From positions 1 through 28,039 of IMG/VR virus record IMGVR_UViG_3300007513_001276: a stretch of 28,039 nucleotides of DNA. The stretch is one strand, 5' to 3'. Numbering within the stretch: the stretch's first letter is position 1; the number at the start of each line of letters is the position of its first letter. Positions 3,796 through 27,323 of the stretch are shown in pieces. Made by a program: the position numbers and the translations under genes. This stretch comes from a virus. The notes beneath the pieces were generated by a model. It had not been told where the DNA came from. It saw nothing but the letters and a program-made list of their open reading frames with translations, and ran no database searches.

Positions 3796-4422
3796 ATGTC
3801 AGTACCAAGCAAAGCAGATGTCAATTTAATGGCTAATCTAATGAAGGTCATGAATGGCGAAAAAGTTAAATTAGAAGAATCATCATCTCAACCCAATAAT
3901 CCAGAACACATAGATATTACACCTGGCGTAAAACGTTCAGACGTAGACGCTATGGCGAAAATTATAAAAGGTTTTGGAGATGCAACAAGTAATGTTGCTA
4001 AAAAAGTCACAAAAACAATTAATGAATCTACAAAGACAGAAAAAGGCGTTGTAATTGGCGCATTTTCAGTAGAAAAGAACAAAGATGACAGATATGATAT
4101 ACTGGACAATCGTGGTGAGAAATTATTCCATGATATTCAATTATATGAAACTGTATTCTGTATTTGTAAGCATCTTAATGACGGAAAAACAATTAATTCT
4201 TCAGAAATTATGCAAATAATTCAAATTAATGAAACATTTGAAAGTCATTATACATCAGCGATTCAACATAAACATTCATATCAAGTGGCCAAGAAATCAG
4301 ACAATTCTGGTAGAATGGATATTGCCCAAGCAAGATTTTCTCAAGCAAAGCATGAGGCTGGCAGAGCAAAATATAAAATTTCTAATCTTTATGAAGATAT
4401 TGCCCGTTCAGTAGACGAGTAA
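3796..4422 (+). CDS. Hypothetical phage protein, 208 aa
   Basis: The start follows AGGAG at a normal distance. The N-terminus repeats a pattern: a first segment KADVNLMANLMKVM and a second RSDVDAMAKIIKGF some 45 residues later, suggesting an internal short-helix duplication. The middle (residues 85-125) alternates like a beta sheet (GVVIGAFSVEKN, then RYDILDNRGEKLF), and the C-terminal third is helical (RMDIAQARFSQAKHEAGRAKY). No motif of known function is visible. Its place between other acidic helical phage genes suggests a structural or assembly role. Confidence 0.8.
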   Translation: MSVPSKADVNLMANLMKVMNGEKVKLEESSSQPNNPEHIDITPGVKRSDVDAMAKIIKGFGDATSNVAKKVTKTINESTKTEKGVVIGAFSVEKNKDDRYDILDNRGEKLFHDIQLYETVFCICKHLNDGKTINSSEIMQIIQINETFESHYTSAIQHKHSYQVAKKSDNSGRMDIAQARFSQAKHEAGRAKYKISNLYEDIARSVDE

Positions 4423-7378: not shown

Positions 7379-8776
7379 ATGGCAACAAACGTAAAAATAT
7401 TATTAAGAAGAGGTTTACGCAACGAGTTAGCAGGAGATACATTATCTGCTGGTGAACTAGGTTATACTACTGACACAAATCAATTGTATGTTGGTGTTGA
7501 AGAAGCAATCAATGAATTGCGTTTTGACCCTTTTGCAAATGCACACGCAGTTATTCAATCTTGGTTGGATAGTTCTGATTGTCCAGTATCAGGCTTAACA
7601 GTCGATGAAGACTTAGTTGTTGCTGATATCCCGTCAGGACAAATAGATAGTATTATTACAGCATTAAACACTTATACTCAAGAAATTGTATTCAATAGTG
7701 ATGTCGCAACTTTTACTGTAGGAGAATTATTAACTCAATACAGACAAAAAAGAACAACTCTTATATCACCAAATGTAATTCCAGATATAAACTCAATTAC
7801 TGCTACTTTTGATGTAGAGGGTGAAACTATTACAGCAAGTGCTGTGACACTTTCTGCTCTACTAACAACATTAGAAACTAATGCGGCAATATCAACAGCA
7901 AATGTTGTTGTTACCGTAGAAGGAACAGGTGCGGCAAGTAAACTTCAATTTGAAAAAATTGATGGTGGCGAACTTAATGTAGATTTTGCATCAGGTCATG
8001 CGGCTCTAGGATTTTCTCAAGCAACTAATACAGTAGCGGCAGTTACTGGTTATGATACTTTTGCAAATGGTACAATAACATCATCAGTTCCTGGCTCTGG
8101 TATTACAACAGTTACAGTGACACTATCAGAATCAGGTTATCTGTATGGGTTTAGACAAGAAGGAACTGGTTGGCCATATGCTAATGCTCCAGACACAAGT
8201 CCATTCTTTTATTTTGGCACACCAAGTACTCTTGATTATTCAGCATTGTCTCCAGCAGTTGAGTCAACAATTATTACTGGTGGATTTGACACAAAGATTG
8301 GTTTATTTGGAAGTAAAAGAAAGAATGTTGAAGTTCTTACTGAAGAATCAAGAAATCAACTATTCACCAATCAACATTTAAAGTCGTATTTACCAACAAC
8401 TGGTCTACGTTCAGATTTATATAAAAAAGAATTAGCAAGTACATCAGGAACATTTTTAAAATATGTTGCCGCAGAGGCAACTACATTCTTTATTGACTAT
8501 TCATTAAAACAAGTAGGGTCTTCAATCACATTTGTTCGTACAGGCACACTTAGAATGATTAACGGAGTACCACAATCAATCAATTTAGCAAAACTTACAG
8601 ATACTAACGTAGAAGTCCACCAAGACACAAATACGGATACTATTGTAGATGCTAATGAGATGTCAAATATCGTTTTTGCCGCGGCAATCGATGGAAGTAA
8701 TATTAAAGTAAATTACACTCAAGATGCAGGTTTTACTACTGAAATCAGTTATACTGTAAAACGTTGGACTATGTAA
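7379..8776 (+). CDS. Tail-fibre-like / virion structural protein, 465 aa
   Basis: The start follows GGGAG. Residues 1-45 (LLRRG then LSAGELGYTTDTNQLYVG) match the short N-terminal module found on many phage tail fibres and receptor-binding proteins, related to the major tropism determinant N-terminus, which attaches the fibre to its partner. The remainder is rich in T, S, V and G with alternating beta-type patterns and no catalytic motif. It is expressed from a late promoter. The C-terminus (TEISYTVKRWTM) is a compact beta ending. It is likely a virion surface component; which fibre or collar piece cannot be told. Confidence 0.75.
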   Translation: MATNVKILLRRGLRNELAGDTLSAGELGYTTDTNQLYVGVEEAINELRFDPFANAHAVIQSWLDSSDCPVSGLTVDEDLVVADIPSGQIDSIITALNTYTQEIVFNSDVATFTVGELLTQYRQKRTTLISPNVIPDINSITATFDVEGETITASAVTLSALLTTLETNAAISTANVVVTVEGTGAASKLQFEKIDGGELNVDFASGHAALGFSQATNTVAAVTGYDTFANGTITSSVPGSGITTVTVTLSESGYLYGFRQEGTGWPYANAPDTSPFFYFGTPSTLDYSALSPAVESTIITGGFDTKIGLFGSKRKNVEVLTEESRNQLFTNQHLKSYLPTTGLRSDLYKKELASTSGTFLKYVAAEATTFFIDYSLKQVGSSITFVRTGTLRMINGVPQSINLAKLTDTNVEVHQDTNTDTIVDANEMSNIVFAAAIDGSNIKVNYTQDAGFTTEISYTVKRWTM

Positions 8777-12796: not shown

Positions 12797-14731
12797 ATGG
12801 GATTAATTAAAAAGTTTGAAAAATCGTATGCGAGTAAAGAACACGAGGAGATGTCACTTTCTGATTATCTTGCATTGTGTAAGAAAGACAAGTTAGCATA
12901 TGCATCCTCGGCAGAGAGATTGCTGGATGCAATTGGAGAACCTGATGTAGTCGATACTAGCAACGATGCTAGATTGAGTCGTATATTCTTAAATCGTACG
13001 ATTAAAGTCTATCCAGCATTTAGTGACTTTTATGGTATGGAAGAAGCAATTGAGAGATTAGTTGCATATTTTCGTCAGTCTGCTCAAGGACTCGAAGAAA
13101 AGAAACAAGTCTTATATCTACTAGGACCAGTTGGTGGTGGTAAATCATCATTAGCAGAACGTCTAAAAGAATTAATGGAAAAGCACCCAATCTATGTGCT
13201 TAAAGCAGGAAACGACATCTCACCAGTATTTGAATCACCACTAGGACTATTTGAGCCTAAAGAGTTTGGTGATGATGCTAAAAAAGAATTTAAAATCCCA
13301 TCACGTTATCTTACAGGTTTAATGTCACCATGGGCAGTTAAAAGACTAGATGAGTTTGAAGGCGACATTTCGAAGTTTAGTGTTGTTAAAATGTACCCAT
13401 CTAAGTTAAAGCAAATTGCTTGTATGAAGACTGAACCAGGTGATGACAACAACCAAGATATTTCAGCACTAGTTGGTAAGACTGATATTCGTAAATTAGA
13501 ATTCTTCTCACAAAATGACCCAGATTCATACGCATTTTCGGGTGCGTTATGTCGTGGTAATCAAGGTGTTATGGAATTCGTAGAGATGTTTAAAGCACCA
13601 ATCAAAGTATTACATCCATTATTAACAGCAACACAAGAAGGTAATTACATGGGAACTGAAGGTATTTCAGCAATTCCATTTAATGGTATCGTAGTTGCTC
13701 ACTCAAATGAGAGTGAATGGGAAACATTTAGAAATAATAAGAACAATGAAGCATTTTTGGACAGAGTATATATCGTTAAAGTTCCATATTGTGTACGTGC
13801 CACAGAAGAAACATTTATCTATCAGAAGATGTTAGATGCATCAGGACTAGATAGTAGCAAATGTGCGCCACATACACTTGATTTGTTATCACAGTTCTCA
13901 GTGCTTTCAAGATTAAAAGAACATAAAAACTCTAACTTAGCGGCTAAGATGAGAGTCTATAATGGTGAAAACTTACACGACATAGACCCTAAGGCAAAGT
14001 CAATGCAAGAGTATAGAGATGTTGCAGGTGTAGATGAAGGAATGAATGGAATGAGTACTCGTTTTGCATTTAAGATTCTTTCACAAACATTCAACTTTGA
14101 CGCAGAGGAAATTGCGGCTGACCCAGTACATCTTATGTATGTGTTAGAAACTGCAATCAAACGTGAACAGTTTCCAGAAGAAACGGAAGAACAGTTAATA
14201 GGTTTTATTAAAGACCACTTAGCAGTTAAGTATAGTGAACAAGTAGGAAAAGAAATTCAAAAAGCATACTTAGAGAGTTATAATGAATATGGTCAAAATC
14301 TATTTGATAGATACTTAGATTATGCTGACCATTGGATTCAGAATATCGATTATAAAGATTCTGACACTGGTAACTTGTTTGACCGTTCTATTCTTAACGA
14401 AGAACTTGAGAAGATTGAAAAGCCTGCAGGTATTGCCAATCCAAAAGACTTTAGAAATGAAGTTGTAAACTGGGTATTACGTGCAAGAAGCAACTACAAA
14501 GGCAAGAATCCACCTTGGACTTCTTATGAGAAGATGAAAGAAGTGATTGAACACAAGATGTTTGCAGGAACAGAAGAATTGCTTCCAGTTATTTCATTTG
14601 GTAGCAAGAAATCTAAAGAAGACCAATCTAAACATGATGATTTCATAGATAGAATGGTAACAAAAGGTTACACGACACGTCAAGTTAAACGATTAGTAGA
14701 ATGGTATATGCGAGTACAGAAGTCTAACTAG
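12797..14731 (+). CDS. prkA: PrkA/YeaG-family serine protein kinase, 644 aa
   Basis: The full-length protein matches the PrkA (YeaG) layout: an AAA+-like N-terminal module with Walker A GPVGGGKS at residues 110-117, long conserved stretches including LKAGNDISPVFESPLGLFEP and ALCRGNQGVMEFVEMFKAPI, LLTATQEGNYMGTEG, and a C-terminal kinase-like module (DWIQNI-type helix, ARSNYKGKNPPWTSYEKMK). In bacteria PrkA is a serine kinase or AAA+ protein used in stationary phase, nitrogen starvation and sporulation. It is followed by YeaH and SpoVR homologues, the same trio that co-occur in proteobacteria. The block is under a late promoter. GAGG precedes the ATG. No frameshift or missing motif was noticed. 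Confidence 0.95.
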   Translation: MGLIKKFEKSYASKEHEEMSLSDYLALCKKDKLAYASSAERLLDAIGEPDVVDTSNDARLSRIFLNRTIKVYPAFSDFYGMEEAIERLVAYFRQSAQGLEEKKQVLYLLGPVGGGKSSLAERLKELMEKHPIYVLKAGNDISPVFESPLGLFEPKEFGDDAKKEFKIPSRYLTGLMSPWAVKRLDEFEGDISKFSVVKMYPSKLKQIACMKTEPGDDNNQDISALVGKTDIRKLEFFSQNDPDSYAFSGALCRGNQGVMEFVEMFKAPIKVLHPLLTATQEGNYMGTEGISAIPFNGIVVAHSNESEWETFRNNKNNEAFLDRVYIVKVPYCVRATEETFIYQKMLDASGLDSSKCAPHTLDLLSQFSVLSRLKEHKNSNLAAKMRVYNGENLHDIDPKAKSMQEYRDVAGVDEGMNGMSTRFAFKILSQTFNFDAEEIAADPVHLMYVLETAIKREQFPEETEEQLIGFIKDHLAVKYSEQVGKEIQKAYLESYNEYGQNLFDRYLDYADHWIQNIDYKDSDTGNLFDRSILNEELEKIEKPAGIANPKDFRNEVVNWVLRARSNYKGKNPPWTSYEKMKEVIEHKMFAGTEELLPVISFGSKKSKEDQSKHDDFIDRMVTKGYTTRQVKRLVEWYMRVQKSN

Positions 14732-14743
14732 AGGAAGACTTTC

Positions 14744-16087
14744 ATGGCAAATACAATTATCGACAGAAGAAAGAATGGGGACTTAAGACAACCTGGTTCA
14801 AAATCTTCTAACAATCGACAAAAATTTATCAAAAGAACTAAAAAAGAGATACGTAAAAGTATACATGATACTTTGGGTAAACGAAGTATCAAAGGTTCTG
14901 GCGATGCCCAAGATGTAGTCATCAATCGAAAAGGTATTGATGAACCTCAATTCAGTCATAATCCACAAACAGGCTCACGTGATATAGTTCTCCCAGGCAA
15001 CAAAGAATATGTTGAGGGCGATTTATTACAGAAACCAAAAGGTGGCGGTGCTGGCAGTGGTGGTGCTTCTGGTAAAGCAAGTAATGAAGGCATCGGCGAA
15101 GACGAATTTGGATTTGCGTTAAGTAATGACGAATTTGTTAACATCTTGTTTGAAGACTTAGAACTTCCTCATATGATTTCCAAAGAAAACAAAGCGGTTG
15201 AACGTTTTGAGATATCTCGTAGCGGATATACAACTGACGGCACTCCAGCACAAATGAATTTAGAGAAAAGCATGGTCAATTCTCTTGGTCGTAAGATTGC
15301 TTTAAAAACTCCAAAACTAAAAAAGATTAAAGAACTACAAGAAGAACTTGACAATCTTGATAAGTTCTTTTATAAGACAACAAAAGAACAAAAAGAAGCA
15401 ACAGAAGAATGGAAACGATATCAAGAAATCGAAGAAGAAATTCGTAAGTTGCGTATCAGAGCAAATGCTGTTTCATTCGTTGACCCAGTTGATTTACGAT
15501 ATAATAATTTTACTAAGAAACCAGCACCAATATCACAAGCAGTTGTATTCTTTATTATGGATGTGAGTGCAAGTATGACAGAACAACATAAAGACTTAGC
15601 AAAACGATTTTTTATGTTACTTAACTTGTTTGTATCTCGAAAATACAAAAGAGTAGAGTGTGTTTTTATCAGACATCACATTCTAGCAATGGAATCCTCT
15701 GAAGATGAATTTTTTAATAGCAGAGATAACGGTGGTACAATAGTTTCAAGTGCATTTAAACTTTCGAAAGAAATCCTTGCTGACCGTTATTCGCCAAATG
15801 AATGGAACATATATTTTGCTCAAGCAAGTGACGGTGACAACTTTGATAATGACAATGAAGAACTTAAGGATATCATTGTTAATGATATATTACCTATAAC
15901 TCAATATTTTAGTTATATTCAAGTAGGAACAAAGAGACATGGTTATTACAATAGTGGAAACTTATTACAGGAATATGTACCATTACAAGCACAACATAAG
16001 AACATGGTAACTAAACACATAGAAGATACTTCTGACATATATCCAGTGTTTAGAGAAATATTTAAAATTAGAGGTAAAAATGAGTAA
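14744..16087 (+). CDS. yeaH: YeaH/YhbH-family (DUF444) VWA protein, 447 aa
   Basis: The N-terminus is typical of the family (IIDRRKNGDLRQPGSKSSNN), with a conserved SIKGSGD-type loop and a glycine-rich linker at residues 99-110. The C-terminal half is a von Willebrand A domain with a MIDAS-like DVSASM at residues 273-278 and GGTIVSSA and QASDGDNF motifs. It is the usual partner of PrkA and probably bridges or regulates the kinase. It lies 12 nt after prkA with AGAGGAAG as ribosome binding site and overlaps the SpoVR gene by 8 nt, so the three are one operon. Length is normal for the family. Confidence 0.93.
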   Translation: MANTIIDRRKNGDLRQPGSKSSNNRQKFIKRTKKEIRKSIHDTLGKRSIKGSGDAQDVVINRKGIDEPQFSHNPQTGSRDIVLPGNKEYVEGDLLQKPKGGGAGSGGASGKASNEGIGEDEFGFALSNDEFVNILFEDLELPHMISKENKAVERFEISRSGYTTDGTPAQMNLEKSMVNSLGRKIALKTPKLKKIKELQEELDNLDKFFYKTTKEQKEATEEWKRYQEIEEEIRKLRIRANAVSFVDPVDLRYNNFTKKPAPISQAVVFFIMDVSASMTEQHKDLAKRFFMLLNLFVSRKYKRVECVFIRHHILAMESSEDEFFNSRDNGGTIVSSAFKLSKEILADRYSPNEWNIYFAQASDGDNFDNDNEELKDIIVNDILPITQYFSYIQVGTKRHGYYNSGNLLQEYVPLQAQHKNMVTKHIEDTSDIYPVFREIFKIRGKNE

Positions 16088-17606
16088 TTTAATATATACA
16101 GGTTCTAGTTGGAATTTTGATAAACTATATCGTATGATGGATGCGTGTGAAGAAATCGCAATCAACGATATGGGACTTGATTGTTTCCCTAATCAGATTG
16201 AAGTCATTACAGTAGAACAAATGTTAGATGCATACTCAAGTGTTGGCATGCCATTGATGTATAATCATTGGAGTTTCGGTAAAAGTTTCATTTCAAATCA
16301 AAAACAGTATAGTGCAGGACAGATGGGATTAGCATATGAGTTAGTTATTAATTCTAATCCTTGTATCAACTATCTTATGGAAGAAAACTCTATGACAACA
16401 CAATCTCTTGTGATTGCTCATGCGGCCTTTGGACATAATCACTTCTTTAAGAATAATTATCTGTTTAAGCAGTGGACATCACCAGATGCAATTGTTGATT
16501 ATCTATTATTTGCAAAAAGATACATAAGAGAATGTGAAGAAAAGTATGGTGTAACGGCAGTAGAGGAAACACTAGATGCGTGTCATGCCATTCAATATCA
16601 AAGTATTAATAAGTATAAAAGACCTAATAGAATATCAGCAAAAGAAGAAATAGAACAACAACGCACAAGAAGTGAATATCTTCAGTCACAAGTAAACGAC
16701 TTATGGCGCACATTACCAGAATCTAAAAAAGAAGAGAAAAAAGAAGAAAAGAACTGGCCAACAGAGCCAGAAGAAAATTTATTATATTTCTTAGAAAAGC
16801 ATTCGCCAATTTTAACTGCATGGCAACGTGAGATATGTAGAATCGTTAGACGAGTAGCACAATATTTTTATCCTCAATATCAAACAAAAGTGATGAATGA
16901 AGGTTTTGCAAGTTTTACACATCATTATATATTCAATAAATTATACGATGAAGGTAAAGTAGATGATGGTGCAATGATTGAATTCTTTAGATTACATAGT
17001 GCAGTACTAAATCAACCATCTTTTGATTCGCCTAATTATGTTGGATTCAATCCATACACATTGGGCTTTTCTATATTGAAGGATATTCAACGAGTTTGTT
17101 TAGAACCAGATGAAGAAGATAAACGATGGTTTCCTCATCTAGCAGACACAGATTGGCGTATTGCAATCAAAGATATTGCCGCTAATTATCGTGATGAGAG
17201 TGCAATCCTGCAATTTCTAGGACCGAAAGTTATTCGTGACCAAAAAATGTTTAATTTACATGACGAAGTTCATTATGACGATTATAAAGTTACGTCAATA
17301 CATGATGACCGTGGATACAAAAAGATTCGTAAGAATTTAAGTTCTAGTTATGAAACAGCCTCAATGATACCTGATATTCAAGTAACAAATGCTGATATCA
17401 AGGCTACACGTGATTTAACACTATTACATGAAAGTTATAAAGGAAAGAGATTAGACGAAAAAACAGCAAATCAAGTTTTATCACATGTACAGAAGTTGTG
17501 GGGATATAAAGTAAAATTATACACAATGCATGGTGAAACATTATTAGATGTATTTGAATGTAAACAAGTTTCTAATGAAAAAGTAGGTTCAAATCTCATA
17601 GTATAA
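16080..17606 (+). CDS. spoVR: SpoVR/YcgB-family protein, 508 aa
   Basis: The sequence carries SpoVR hallmarks: MPLMYNHWSFGKSF, GLAYELVINSNPCINYLMEENS, VIAHAAFGHNHFFKNNYLF, ILTAWQREICRIVRRVAQYF and NEGFASFTHHYIFNKL, plus NYVGFNPYTLGF later. Several histidines and glutamates in these motifs look like metal ligands. SpoVR acts in Bacillus spore cortex formation, and its proteobacterial relative YcgB works with YeaG/YeaH in starvation responses; the biochemistry is not known. The ATG overlaps the yeaH stop. Length matches bacterial relatives, so it is probably functional. An early promoter for the next block lies 14 nt beyond the stop. Confidence 0.95.
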   Translation: MSNLIYTGSSWNFDKLYRMMDACEEIAINDMGLDCFPNQIEVITVEQMLDAYSSVGMPLMYNHWSFGKSFISNQKQYSAGQMGLAYELVINSNPCINYLMEENSMTTQSLVIAHAAFGHNHFFKNNYLFKQWTSPDAIVDYLLFAKRYIRECEEKYGVTAVEETLDACHAIQYQSINKYKRPNRISAKEEIEQQRTRSEYLQSQVNDLWRTLPESKKEEKKEEKNWPTEPEENLLYFLEKHSPILTAWQREICRIVRRVAQYFYPQYQTKVMNEGFASFTHHYIFNKLYDEGKVDDGAMIEFFRLHSAVLNQPSFDSPNYVGFNPYTLGFSILKDIQRVCLEPDEEDKRWFPHLADTDWRIAIKDIAANYRDESAILQFLGPKVIRDQKMFNLHDEVHYDDYKVTSIHDDRGYKKIRKNLSSSYETASMIPDIQVTNADIKATRDLTLLHESYKGKRLDEKTANQVLSHVQKLWGYKVKLYTMHGETLLDVFECKQVSNEKVGSNLIV

Positions 17607-22922: not shown

Positions 22923-23112
22923 AAGAGCGAAATATACTGTCTGGAGCCGTAAAAGAGGGGCTGGTAGAGGGATTATGACGAAATTGACTGGAATGTACTA
23001 TGGCCACTCATTTTCACATAAAAATGGGGTAAAATTGACTAAAATCTTAAAAACTTGACAATTTCAGCAAATATGCTATAATGGTTAAGAATAAACAACT
23101 AAAGGAGTTAAA
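22923..23112 (+). other. Intergenic stretch of 190 nt with promoter
   Basis: Purine-rich sequence with several GAGGGG/GAGGG tracts. A 27-codon frame (ATG 22975 to TGA 23058, GAGGG before it) is present but unsupported. No tRNA or clear terminator was seen; the early promoter at 23055 and its leader occupy the right end. It could hold a small RNA. Confidence 0.4.
23055..23082 (+). promoter_or_regulatory. Consensus early sigma70 promoter with extended -10
   Basis: Perfect TTGACA (23055-23060), 16-nt spacer, TATAAT (23077-23082) preceded by TGC. It lies 30 nt before the ATG at 23113. Confidence 0.92.
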
Positions 23113-23637
23113 ATGAAATATATCGTAACTATAATCGCTTTAACGATGAGTATCTTTACCACTAATGTTATGGCGTCAAATGCCACTGCTACTATAAATG
23201 GTACAGTGATATCAAGTACTGCTATTATGCAAGACCAAGTTAAGAATGTCCCACAAGAGTCATGTACTATTGTAGATGTTCCTATCTATGGTGGAGGTCA
23301 AGCCTCAGCCGCTGATGCAATTACTGGTGCTATTATCGGTGGAGTTATTGGTAATCAAGTAGGTAAAGGTAAAGGTAATGATGCCGCTACTATATTTGGT
23401 GCAATCATCGGTGCAAAAGCGGCCGAAGAAAATGCTAAAAAGAAAGGTACTAACATTGTAGGTTACAAACAAGTACAACAATGTTCAGTTACTTATGTAA
23501 GAGTTCATGAATCTGTTGTAGTTGGTTACGAAACTACAGTTGAGTTATATGAAGATATGATACATACTTTCGTAACACATAGGGCTTTTCAAGTTGGTCA
23601 AATTGTACCAGTTACAATGACTTTAACATTGAATTAA
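23113..23637 (+). CDS. Secreted glycine-zipper 2TM-domain protein, 174 aa
   Basis: The N-terminus is a signal peptide (MKYIVTIIALTMSIFTTNVM, cut probably after MASN or nearby), so the protein is exported. Residues 66-100 hold a glycine zipper (GAIIGGVIGNQVGKGKGNDA then GAIIGAKAAEE), as in Rickettsia 17-kDa-antigen-type outer-membrane proteins. Two cysteines (C51 and C124) could form a disulphide, and the C-terminus is beta-rich (QVGQIVPVTMTLTLN). It is probably placed in the periplasm or outer membrane of the infected cell, perhaps for superinfection exclusion or envelope change. It has its own early promoter and a terminator downstream. Similar proteins occur in other marine phages. Confidence 0.85.
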   Translation: MKYIVTIIALTMSIFTTNVMASNATATINGTVISSTAIMQDQVKNVPQESCTIVDVPIYGGGQASAADAITGAIIGGVIGNQVGKGKGNDAATIFGAIIGAKAAEENAKKKGTNIVGYKQVQQCSVTYVRVHESVVVGYETTVELYEDMIHTFVTHRAFQVGQIVPVTMTLTLN

Positions 23638-23705: not shown

Positions 23706-23732
23706 AAAAGCCTCTTTTTAGAGGCTTTTTTT
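23706..23732 (+). terminator. Rho-independent terminator
   Basis: AAAAGCCTCT (23706-23715), loop TTTT, AGAGGCTTTT (23720-23729) and a run of T: a 10-bp stem and U-tract. It ends the transcript of the glycine-zipper gene. Confidence 0.92.
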
Positions 23733-23755: not shown

Positions 23756-25246
23756 ATGTTATTTCCAATAATTACATTTATAACCGCCATTGCAATTGCG
23801 GCAATTGCCGCTTGGTTTTCAGTTTATGGTCTTATGGCTATATTTACGGCATCAGCAGTTGCCGTTGCCATTATGGCAGTAGCACTAGAAGTTGGTAAAT
23901 TAGTATCAGCATCGTGGGTGTACCGTAACTGGAATAGGGCACCATTTCTTTTAAAATCTTATCTTACAATCGCAGTAATAATTCTAATGCTCATTACTTC
24001 AATGGGTATCTTTGGTTTTCTATCAAAAGCACATTTAGAACAAGCGGCTGACAGTGACGAAAACACTGCTCGTATTGAACGTATTGTTCAGGATATGGAA
24101 AGATATGAGATTTCAACAGATAGACTTGAAGAAAAAATTACAAAATTAGATGATGAAAGTGAAGTAGACACTTCAAAAATACAAGAACAAATCGATACAG
24201 AGGAAGCAAGAATGGACAATGTTATGGTCCGAATTCAGCCTGCTATCGATGAACAGAATTTAATCATTAGTACTGACTTAGAAAAAGATGATGAAAAGAT
24301 TGCTCCATATCTAAATCAATTAGATAACTTAGATAGAGAACTTCTTAGTCTTGAAGAACAGGCTAAGAAACTTGAACAAGATATTATTAATGTTGGTAAA
24401 GATACAACAAATTATGATTATGCAGTAAAACCATTCAATGACCAGATTGATAAAATCAAATCAGACATAGCAACATTTAAAGAAATGTCTAAATCTGGTG
24501 AACAAGCAGACCTTAAGAAAGCACAACAAGTAGTTGGTATACCTTGGGGATATTGGAGAAATTCAGAAGTTGTTGCTGAATGGAATGCAGACCAAGAAGT
24601 AAAGTTGACACAACTAGGAACAAAGATTGCAGAAGTTCGTAAAGACTTTGAAAGACAATACAAACTAGAACGTACCAGTCTTAGAAGACTAGTTACAAAA
24701 TTGAGAGGCGAAGACACACAGGCTGTTAATGAACGTAAGATGGAATTACTAGTAAAAATTGAAGAAGCAAGAGGAGTTGAATCCTCTGTAATATCTTCCG
24801 CTAGAGATGAAATCAAAAGATTACGTGAAAAAGCAGATAGAGAAGTTGCAGGTTCTTTAATCATTCTTGACCGATTAAGAAATGAATTACTCAACGTATC
24901 ACAAATTGACAATTCAGTAGAGATTGATACATTACAATTACAAATCAATAATAACGAAAATTCTATTGATGGATTGATAGACCAAAAGTTTGAATTAGAA
25001 CGAGAGATTAGACAAATTGAAACAGAGATTGGACCTATCAAGTACATTGCAGAGATGGTATATGGTAACACAGAAAGAGATACAATTGACCAGGCAGTTA
25101 GATGGCTTATCATTGTGTTCATTTTTGTATTTGACCCATTAGCAGTATTACTTTTACTCGCCGCTAATTACAGTTTCATTCATAGGGACTTGGGTGGCAA
25201 ACAGAAAGAAATTTTTGATAAAGTTTCTTTCAAAAAAAAAAAGTAA
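23756..25246 (+). CDS. Membrane-anchored coiled-coil protein, 496 aa (0-frame product)
   Basis: AGAGGAGG is a strong ribosome binding site. Residues 1-45 hold two hydrophobic segments (FITAIAIAAIAAWFS and LMAIFTASAVAVAIMAVALE), residues 65-88 a third (YLTIAVIILMLITSMGIFGF), and about 445-475 a C-terminal one (WLIIVFIFVFDPLAVLLLLA). Between them, residues 95-440 are long coiled coils rich in E, K, L and Q (for example RIERIVQDMERYEISTDRLE). Similar coil-containing membrane proteins recur in T4-like marine phages, without known function. The frame ends in KKKK-stop at an A11 run, where a -1 shift would add 94 residues (see 25243-25527). Confidence 0.85.
   Translation: MLFPIITFITAIAIAAIAAWFSVYGLMAIFTASAVAVAIMAVALEVGKLVSASWVYRNWNRAPFLLKSYLTIAVIILMLITSMGIFGFLSKAHLEQAADSDENTARIERIVQDMERYEISTDRLEEKITKLDDESEVDTSKIQEQIDTEEARMDNVMVRIQPAIDEQNLIISTDLEKDDEKIAPYLNQLDNLDRELLSLEEQAKKLEQDIINVGKDTTNYDYAVKPFNDQIDKIKSDIATFKEMSKSGEQADLKKAQQVVGIPWGYWRNSEVVAEWNADQEVKLTQLGTKIAEVRKDFERQYKLERTSLRRLVTKLRGEDTQAVNERKMELLVKIEEARGVESSVISSARDEIKRLREKADREVAGSLIILDRLRNELLNVSQIDNSVEIDTLQLQINNNENSIDGLIDQKFELEREIRQIETEIGPIKYIAEMVYGNTERDTIDQAVRWLIIVFIFVFDPLAVLLLLAANYSFIHRDLGGKQKEIFDKVSFKKKK
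25237..25243 (+). promoter_or_regulatory. Candidate -1 ribosomal frameshift site A_AAA_AAG
   Basis: In the 0 frame the heptamer reads A AAA AAG and is followed at once by TAA. A AAA AAG is the slippery site of E. coli dnaX. The run of 11 A (25232-25242) precedes it. No strong downstream hairpin or upstream Shine-Dalgarno stimulator was found by eye. Confidence 0.6.
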
Positions 25247-25527
25247 AAAAACCACTTGACTTTTCACCTGAAATAAGCGATAATATTACTAAAGAAGAAG
25301 TAATAGATATCGCTCCGTCTGAGGAAAAAGAAGAACCTGAAGAAGAAGTTGAAGAAATTGACGAAAATATCGGTGTAGTTTTAGATGATGCCGAGATTGA
25401 CGAAGAAATAGAAGAAGAATTGACTCCAGAACAGGTTGAAGAAGTTAAAAAAGAGGTTCAAAGAGAGATAAATACTCAAGCAATCAAGGGAGATGGTTGG
25501 TTAGACGATATTGAAGACAAAAAATAA
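25243..25527 (+). CDS. -1 frame extension of the coiled-coil protein, 94 codons, very acidic
   Basis: Directly after the 496-aa frame the -1 frame is open for 94 codons and contains no ATG; it begins VKKPLDFSPEISDNITKEEV and continues with runs of E and D (EEKEEPEEEVEEIDEN), ending GDGWLDDIEDKK. It has the base and codon usage of a real gene but no start codon or ribosome binding site of its own, so it is best read as the C-terminus of a 590-aa fusion made by frameshifting, with a cytoplasmic acidic tail after the last membrane segment. A single missing A in the run (11 instead of 12) would give the same picture as an assembly error. Confidence 0.7.
   Translation, partial: VKKPLDFSPEISDNITKEEVIDIAPSEEKEEPEEEVEEIDENIGVVLDDAEIDEEIEEELTPEQVEEVKKEVQREINTQAIKGDGWLDDIEDKK
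25256..25284 (+). promoter_or_regulatory. Possible early sigma70 promoter inside the acidic extension
   Basis: TTGACT (25256-25261), 17-nt spacer, GATAAT (25279-25284). A fair match lying in coding sequence if the frameshift product is real. It could drive clpX-infC-rpsU, 254 nt downstream. Confidence 0.5.
25467..25475 (+). promoter_or_regulatory. Possible T4-type late promoter before clpX
   Basis: GATAAATAC inside the acidic extension, ending 62 nt before the TTG start of clpX. The distance is longer than usual, so it could be chance in AT-rich coding sequence. Confidence 0.5.
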
Positions 25528-25537
25528 AGAGGCTTAA

Positions 25538-26791
25538 TTGGCAGAAAATAAAGAATTCAAGTGTTCGTTTTGTGGAAAACCAAAGAACGACATCAAAACA
25601 TTAATTGCTGGACCTAACCAGTACATTTGTAATGAGTGTATTGATTTATGTCATGATATTATTCATGAGGTAAAAAAAGAAGAGAAACAAGATTATACAT
25701 CTATTTCTACCACTCCTGAAGAAATCAAAGAGTACTTGGATAACCATGTTATTGGTCAAAACGAAGCAAAAGAAGTGGTATCAGTTGCCGTTTATAATCA
25801 CTATAAACGTATCAATGCAACAGATACAGGAGTTGAACTAGATAAATCTAATATCTTATGTTTTGGACCTAGTGGCACAGGTAAAACTTTAATAGGCAAA
25901 ACTATTGCTAAATTTCTTGATGTACCATTTGCTCAAATCGATGCAACTACCCTAACTGAAAGTGGTTACGTTGGTGAAGACGTAGAGAATGTAGTACAAC
26001 GTTTGTTAATAGCATCAGATTTTGATATTGAAAAAGCAGAACGTGGTATCGTGTATATTGATGAAATTGATAAGAAAGCCAAGAAAGGTGAAAACTTATC
26101 AATCACAAAAGACGTTTCTGGCGAAGGTGTTCAACAGGCATTACTTAAAATCGTAGAAGGAACAGTAGTTCGTGTTCCACCAGGCGGTGGTCGTAAGCAT
26201 CCAAACCAAGAGATGATTGAAGTAGATACAAGAAAAATCTTATTCATTGTTGGTGGTGCATTTGTAGGTATTGATAAGATTGTAGAAAACAGAGTCAATA
26301 CAAGTCCTGGGATTGGTTTTAGTGCCAAACAAAAGGGAAGTAGTGAGTGTAATACTAGAGAACATATCAGAGCAACAGATTTTCTTAAATATGGATTGAT
26401 TCCAGAATTTATGGGTAGATTTCCAATTATAGTTGGACTTGATGAATTAACAGAAGAAGAATTAGTTAGAATTCTAATTGAACCAAAGAACAGTATAATT
26501 TCACAATTTAAGATGTTATTCGCTTTAGACAATGTAGAATTAGAAGTTGGTGATGAGGCTTTACAAGCAATTGCCAATGTAGCACATGAAGATACAACAG
26601 GTGCAAGAGGACTAAGAAGTGTAATAGAGAAGTCATTGTTAAAGACTCAATTTAAACTTCCAAAACTTGCAAAGGATGGACTTATAAAAGTTATCATTAC
26701 TAAAGATTTTATTTCAGGCACCACAGATAAGCCAATATTGGTTTATAAAGAAAAGGATGCTAAGGAGCCAGAACAAAAAGTAGATGGCTAA
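25538..26791 (+). CDS. clpX: ClpX, AAA+ unfoldase of the ClpXP protease, 417 aa, TTG start
   Basis: A full-length ClpX: zinc-binding domain with C9, C12, C31 and C34; Walker A GPSGTGKT (110-117); pore loop GYVG (143-146); Walker B IVYIDE (171-176); RKH loop (219-221); IGF loop (259-261) that docks on ClpP; arginine finger region FMGRFP (291-296); sensor 2 GARGLR (355-360). It unfolds tagged or adaptor-bound proteins and feeds them to ClpP. No clpP gene is in view, so it presumably uses host ClpP. The TTG start has AGAGG at a good distance and gives the expected N-terminus; no ATG nearby is better. It overlaps the IF3 gene by 8 nt. Confidence 0.97.
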
Positions 26792-27323
26792 GTTTTATAA
26801 GGACAATCGAAAAGATAGGATTGTATATAATCATCAAATAAAATTTGATACGTTGCGAGTGATAGGTTCCGACAGAACTACACTAGGAGTAATGAGTAAG
26901 AAAGAAGCCTTGGCTCTTGCAGACTCAGAAAATTTAGACTTAATATTGATTGTACCGAAGGCAAAGCCACCTGTTGCTAGAATTATTGAGTTGAATAAGT
27001 ATAGATACGAGCAACAAAAGAATGAAAAAGAAATGGCTAAAAAAGCCAGGGCGGCACGAATTGATACAAAAGAAATAAAGTTTAAACCTAATATAGGTGA
27101 ACACGACTTGCTCATAAAAATGAAACATGCACAAGAGTTTTTAGATAATGGAGCAAAAGTAAAAATAACAATTCAGATGCGTGGTCGAGAAAATGCAAAC
27201 AAGTCAGATGTGTTTACATTTTTTAAAGAAGCAATAGAAACACATTTAGTGAATTTTAAATATGATTCAAATTTAGCATTAAATGGAAATAGAATAATAG
27301 GAGTTTTGTTTAAAGATGGGTAG
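26784..27323 (+). CDS. infC: Translation initiation factor IF-3, 179 aa
   Basis: Length and order match bacterial IF3. N-domain: [38 protein letters not shown] (residues 51-68) and the helix linker [21 protein letters not shown]-domain: KEIKFKP (96-102), [20 protein letters not shown] (106-125), MRGREN (132-137). IF3 binds the 30S platform, keeps 50S off and checks the initiator tRNA and start codon. Here the usual PPVC is PPVA and the usual DYGK is ELNK, small departures from the norm. The start is ATG, not the autoregulating AUU of host infC. It overlaps clpX upstream and rpsU downstream. Confidence 0.95.

Follow-up and report, generated by a model that had tools for sequence, protein, structure and literature searches.

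A conserved run of A's at the end of a phage membrane-protein gene beside clpX as a candidate recoding site for a short and a long product

The question raised by this locus is whether an acidic reading frame, which lies one base out of phase behind a membrane-protein gene and has no conventional start codon of its own, is translated as the C-terminus of that protein, and by what means the frame would be crossed. We use "the window" for the whole stretch of DNA analysed (28,039 nucleotides, positions 1 to 28,039 of IMG/VR virus record IMGVR_UViG_3300007513_001276), in which, at this locus, an ORF caller reports the 496-amino-acid frame alone and overlooks the tail. The elements concerned are these:

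23756 to 25246, plus strand: zero-frame ORF of 496 amino acids, exactly this length in all eight members of the slip clade described below.
25232 to 25243, plus strand: slippery run of eleven A's and a G; A11 in seven of eight clade members and A9 in one.
25244 to 25246, plus strand: zero-frame stop codon TAA adjoining the run, in 8/8 clade members.
25243 to 25527, plus strand: acidic −1-frame tail of 94 codons plus stop, open in 8/8 clade members, with codon-sized indels.
25495 to 25509, plus strand: C-terminal tip GWLDD of the tail; GWLD in 7/7 distinct slip-clade tails and 18/18 outgroup contigs.
23706 to 23729, strand unassigned (listed on the minus strand by the scan): terminator-like hairpin 5′ of the membrane gene.

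The zero frame closes with TTC AAA AAA AAA AAG TAA, in which the 11 A's occupy 25232-25242, the G is at 25243, the stop codon follows directly at 25244-25246, and the heptamer A_AAA_AAG stands in phase at 25237-25243. The −1 frame is open over 25222-25527 and supplies 94 codons after the slip (25243-25524) before its stop at 25525-25527. The first-pass annotation had read the end of the 496-residue frame as A AAA AAG TAA, which is exact to the base (25237-25246), and both its count of 94 codons lacking an ATG and the 590-residue length of the joined product hold up; GTG and TTG are missing from the window's tail as well. The tail carries a net charge of −26, and none of 5000 Markov resamplings of it stayed open across 94 codons. 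The run at the slip site is the sole run of at least eight A's or T's in the 28,039-base window; the number of A runs of that length expected from dinucleotide composition is 6.6. As read from the sequence, the 496-residue frame comprises an N-terminal hydrophobic pair, a long coiled coil and a hydrophobic segment at about residues 449-472, followed by about 25 residues of which the last are VSFKKKK. A mechanical call also places an antisense ORF of 234 amino acids (24418-25122, minus strand) inside the membrane gene.

A misassembled homopolymer, a decaying pseudogene tail, or DNA phase variation in which other genomes are in phase would each produce such a split in a single sequence, and this group of explanations draws some weight from the hypermutability of long A runs, from the window being a single assembly, and from the in-frame state of all 18 outgroup contigs described below. 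Scans of viral_contigs provided seven close relatives, all IMG/VR contigs (L001, L029, L030, L031, L032, L033, and L042), at 79-86% amino acid identity; with the window they make up a clade of eight contigs, all of them metagenome assemblies, with no cultured member above 60% identity. Two of them, L030 and L031, come from different metagenomes, match at 99.8% of 11,485 bases and both have A11, so that the eight contigs represent seven distinct sequences. In all eight, a zero frame of 496 codons ends in a TAA adjoining the run, and an acidic −1 tail of 81-106 codons follows; the last zero-frame codon is AAG in five members and AAT in three, such that A_AAA_AAG is in phase in the window and four others and the remaining three have A_AAA_AAT. 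The run has 11 A's in seven contigs and 9 in L032, where the shorter run arose through substitutions and the frame offset is the same as in the others, which argues against a homopolymer miscall. A run in phase, the state expected of some genomes under phase variation, was found in 0/8 clade contigs. Since a homopolymer could regain phase by a one-base slip and all eight contigs are nonetheless out of phase, selection for the split is suggested. Decay is unlikely because a decaying tail would lose its frame, which has been retained. In the tail, the third codon position of the −1 frame is the one that changes most; pooled pN and pS are 0.135 and 0.385 for the tail and 0.074 and 0.416 upstream, and pairwise dS of the upstream ORF within the clade is 0.35-0.82. 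The pattern of changes, codon-sized indels and dS values of up to about 0.8 point to purifying selection on the tail, and together with the retained GWLD tip they make artefact, decay or phase variation highly improbable.

Where the tail came from is indicated by more distant relatives. An outgroup of 18 contigs (L034-L041, L054, L055, L056, L059, L064, L067, L068, L069, L072, and L073; 13 distinct) has, in every case, a homologous tail that continues the frame of the membrane protein, with this order of elements (LD, next SDN, DDN, or DDT, and a terminal GWLD, the last in 18/18). Family members further out are also single in-frame ORFs, among the best 80 of the 217 relatives from one viral_contigs scan, and a search of genome_contigs returned no relative. 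Phylogenies built for the membrane protein (21 rows) and for ClpX (20 rows) both place the slip members in one clade with 100/100 support and require a single change of state, under midpoint rooting only. With the tail in frame in 18/18 outgroup contigs, the tail is an ancestral part of the protein, its own C-terminus, and the split is derived and maintained; the simplest history that the alignments and trees suggest is an in-frame ancestor followed by one switch out of frame in the slip clade. The same comparisons show a coding tail whose homologue is the in-frame tail, and an out-of-frame geometry that all close relatives have kept. The clade thus offers a clean natural comparison of in-frame relatives, one out-of-frame switch and lasting retention. 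Taken together, sequence comparison lends good support to a conserved recoding site from which both a short and a long product would arise. These comparisons also bear on the first-pass annotation: its proposal of two products from one site gains support from conservation across 8/8 clade contigs, and the slippery site and split frame that it had advised looking for in related phages are present in the seven other contigs. It had also counted in-frame fused homologues lacking a slippery site against recoding; such homologues do occur, in 18/18 outgroup contigs, but recoding in the slip clade stands.

Rather than being joined to the membrane protein, the tail could be made separately, from a non-ATG start in the overlap or by re-initiation at the TAA, perhaps aided by a phage-encoded IF3. 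Tail codons 15 and 11 are conserved as ATT and ATA, and a promoter-like sequence lies within the tail:

25256 to 25284, plus strand: sigma70-like promoter TTGACT-N17-GATAAT in the tail frame, in 8/8 slip-clade and 14/18 outgroup contigs.

A transcript from this internal promoter would, however, begin at or beyond codons 11 and 15. Six of the seven distinct tails have no ATG, GTG, or TTG near their start (a single GTG occurs, in L032 only), no ribosome-binding site was found by eye, and in 18/18 outgroup contigs the tail forms one ORF with the membrane protein, so a separate tail protein is the least probable of the explanations considered, with only the slightest chance of being correct. The promoter is better connected with the next gene, clpX. 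At synonymous sites, divergence is 0.27 upstream, drops to 0.04-0.08 in windows covering codons 497-521 and rises again beyond them, and a scan of viral_contigs with the promoter pattern retrieved precisely the seven contigs L001, L029-L033, and L042. We considered the synonymous suppression after the slip site as a frameshift element and rejected it, because the promoter, shared by most in-frame relatives, explains it better. TTGAC[A/T]-N17-GATAAT is missing from outgroup contigs L059, L064, L072, and L073, and its presence in most in-frame relatives favors a promoter for clpX over a frameshift element. In the window its score is 10/12, and the scan gave 22 promoter-like hits where 17.3 are expected, so that conservation is the one thing that speaks for it; on that basis, 25256-25284 is probably a sigma70-like promoter driving clpX. 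Elsewhere in the window, the gene for a glycine-zipper protein at 23113 has upstream of it a sigma70-type promoter that matches the consensus fully (TTGACA-N16-TATAAT, the −10 element being preceded by TG; 23055-23082).

The frame could be crossed by the ribosome or by RNA polymerase. In the first case, −1 programmed ribosomal frameshifting of the dnaX kind would take place on A_AAA_AAG, with the stop codon just after it and polymerase slippage unimportant, much as the first-pass annotation had proposed. The part of that proposal that stands is the heptamer, which is in phase in 5/8 members, and the aligned sequences also have A_AAA_AAA one codon upstream. As this upstream heptamer is still there in the AAT members, ribosomal slippage is kept as a possibility for them, as it is for the AAG members. 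What the proposal lacks is the usual stimulators and the heptamer itself in the 3/8 members ending in AAT. No AGGAG-like motif was seen by eye about 10 nt upstream in the aligned sequences, where a Shine-Dalgarno-like stimulator would be expected and where the region is instead pyrimidine-rich (TTTCTTTC or similar). Downstream, no stem-loop lies 5-9 nt from the run as in dnaX; the nearest conserved hairpin is about 35 nt away, falls on the promoter and is not backed by covariation. A second hairpin directly 5′ of the run forms 11/11 pairs in the window and L001 and 7-10/11 in the other five, and its covariation score was equalled in 29/500 shuffles. As proven stimulators, the hairpin 5′ of the run and the one about 35 nt 3′ (z about −4 in the window) were both rejected, with pairing of 7-11/11 elsewhere and covariation much like that of shuffles; the hairpin upstream of the run is a possible stimulator. 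The retained runs of at least nine A's are also far longer than a heptamer requires and are nearly absent away from the slip site. Pure ribosomal frameshifting is accordingly a possible but unlikely explanation.

The alternative is that RNA polymerase slips on the run. One survey assigns A runs of n>7 to transcriptional slip sequences and A_AAA_AAG to ribosomal ones (PMC3711429). Two features expected of poly-A slippage are found here: at least about nine A's at the frame transition in 8/8 members, and a continuation frame corresponding to a conserved part that is in frame in relatives (18/18 outgroup contigs). Across six clade contigs (341,656 bases), runs of at least nine A's on either strand number seven in all, six of which are the slip site, and no 11-A run away from the slip site occurs in the 10 contigs searched. 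L001 has a second 9-A run (1551-1559), which lies close to where another small ORF for a membrane protein ends (...LFIKKK...). The lack of dnaX-type stimulators and the near absence of such runs elsewhere favor transcriptional slippage over pure ribosomal frameshifting. Against this reading, an A run by itself fits both mechanisms, the 9 A's of L032 are about the lower limit for polymerase slippage (A_AAA_AAG is retained there), and adjacent conserved AAA lysine columns are not unusual, since all seven distinct sequences have AAA at 12 of 29 all-lysine columns. On balance, we give transcriptional slippage at the A run, alone or as the leading process, a probability of roughly 0.6. The RNA polymerase family PF00623 was found in none of 10 related contigs, which are fragments, and in all 14 control genomes, so the host polymerase probably transcribes the gene.

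One in-frame relative suggests that slippage could also act in the opposite sense. The sole run of at least nine A's on either strand of L064 (146,030 bases) is located exactly at the junction homologous to the slip site:

L064 locus 4234-4242 (contig 83359-83367), minus strand: run of nine A's, a candidate mirror-image slip site.

Slippage at this candidate site would remove the tail, with full length as the default product, although the junction is lysine-rich across the family and the run there could be chance. L038 has two 9-A runs, which at about 2.9 kb upstream of its gene are irrelevant to the junction.

We propose that one start gives rise to two proteins. Straight reading would stop at the TAA after the run and give the 496-residue form, a coiled-coil membrane protein whose short end is basic; a part of the messages, or of the ribosomes, would pass into the −1 frame at the run and so yield the 590-residue form, carrying the ancestral acidic tail with its GWLDD tip. 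The tail would be cytoplasmic, judging by the charges. The main engine would be the host RNA polymerase, slipping on A9-A11 with the addition of one A, and ribosomal slippage on A_AAA_AAG or A_AAA_AAA may contribute. Less certainly, the proportion of subunits that carry the tail may matter, and the tip may recruit a partner, perhaps the phage ClpX encoded next door:

25538 to 26791, plus strand: clpX, 417 amino acids, TTG start, AGAGG 5 nt upstream; the next gene in 26/26 long-family contigs.

All 26 long-family contigs share a homologous N-terminal membrane region, an FDPLA segment and clpX as the next gene. A W[LI] tip is present where clpX is the next gene in 26/26 of these contigs and in 4/4 distant members (L023, which is Salicola phage SCTP-2, L079, L110, and L120, with tips such as RWINR and SWLxEFKR), and in 2/52 other distinct C-termini (L025 and L127), a pattern spotted post hoc, in which the tip classes track few lineages. 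The 52 C-termini were counted after collapsing identical tails and include five with fewer than 600 bases downstream; L081 and L116, cut off inside the gene, and loci repeating contigs already used were left out. L074 and L080, with clpX 398 and 583 nt away, lack the tip. Other conserved tips, for example, IDENNIRKM and RDGGTF, are seen in family members without clpX next. As a lead from these sequences, the tip of the tail may dock ClpX; the GWLD tip beside clpX is a more specific lead than the earlier, unsupported suggestion that the acidic tail might bind basic proteins. A fuller version, in which polymerase slippage sets how many copies of an envelope-spanning coiled coil bear a ClpX-recruiting tip and L064-type relatives are the mirror image with some tailless copies, is doubtful at present. 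Searches of the membrane protein against Pfam, PHROGs, and NCBIfam gave nothing above cut-off or convincing: weak matches were to PG_binding_3 in 6/20 and PG_binding_1 in 2/20, and a sub-cut-off match to Tetraspanin in 20/20 was taken as spurious. AlphaFold modelling of L036, one of the in-frame relatives (mean pLDDT 65.6), gave a coiled coil and a disordered tail, and Foldseek returned only generic coiled coils and no family. The pairing of a membrane coiled coil with clpX in large phages is unstudied, and the present finding draws attention to it.

Other genes in the window were also noted. A phage IF3 with both Pfam domains lies just 3′ of clpX (26784-27323). Genes for PrkA, DUF444, and SpoVR stand in a row at 12797-17606, a cluster of bacterial stress and sporulation type; the closest SpoVR relatives in phage records are from uncultured phages of about 640 kb. 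The product of 7379-8776, a possible receptor-binding protein, contains an Mtd_N domain (major tropism determinant N-terminal).

Several known systems resemble this one in part. As in Escherichia coli dnaX, A_AAA_AAG is in phase and a short and a long product would come from one gene, whereas the window gene has no Shine-Dalgarno-like stimulator or stem-loop at the usual distance, has a run of 9-11 A's and lacks the AAG in 3/8 members. In dnaX, frameshifting yields the shorter product; in the window gene, it would yield the longer one. Among large phages, hypothetical coiled-coil membrane proteins of Pelagibacter phage Mosig, Salicola phage SCTP-2 (gp195), and Xanthomonas phage XacN1 share the homologous N-terminal membrane region and an FDPLA-like segment, and gp195 likewise sits before clpX; all three are single in-frame ORFs with other C-terminal tips, shorter coils, and no slip site. 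Frameshifts in phage tail-assembly chaperone (G-T) and coat-protein genes are described as giving, in a fixed proportion, two products that differ at the C-terminus (PMC5009743), unlike which the window gene encodes a membrane coiled coil beside clpX that is apparently not structural. Among bacterial secretion genes, a few are known to fix the ratio of two forms of a membrane protein by poly-A slippage, and no phage case was found in the literature searched. The closest parallel is Citrobacter rodentium tssM1, in which 11 A's are reported to yield transcripts with 10-15 A's and about 20-25% frameshifting, both forms being needed (PMC4256274). Both genes encode a membrane protein (in tssM1, one of the inner membrane) with 11 A's before a stop, and full length is usual in relatives; in tssM1 an extra A gives full length and the short form is the default product (PMC4256274), as is proposed for the present gene. 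They differ in that the present gene belongs to a phage, its TAA adjoins the run rather than following 28 nt later, its slippage is predicted from sequence, and the part that would be lost is an acidic cytoplasmic tail rather than a periplasmic domain. Yersinia pseudotuberculosis tssM3 is described as the mirror image, full length by default, and the in-frame 9-A run of L064 resembles it (PMC4256274). Recoding at this locus is ordinary in kind and new in place.
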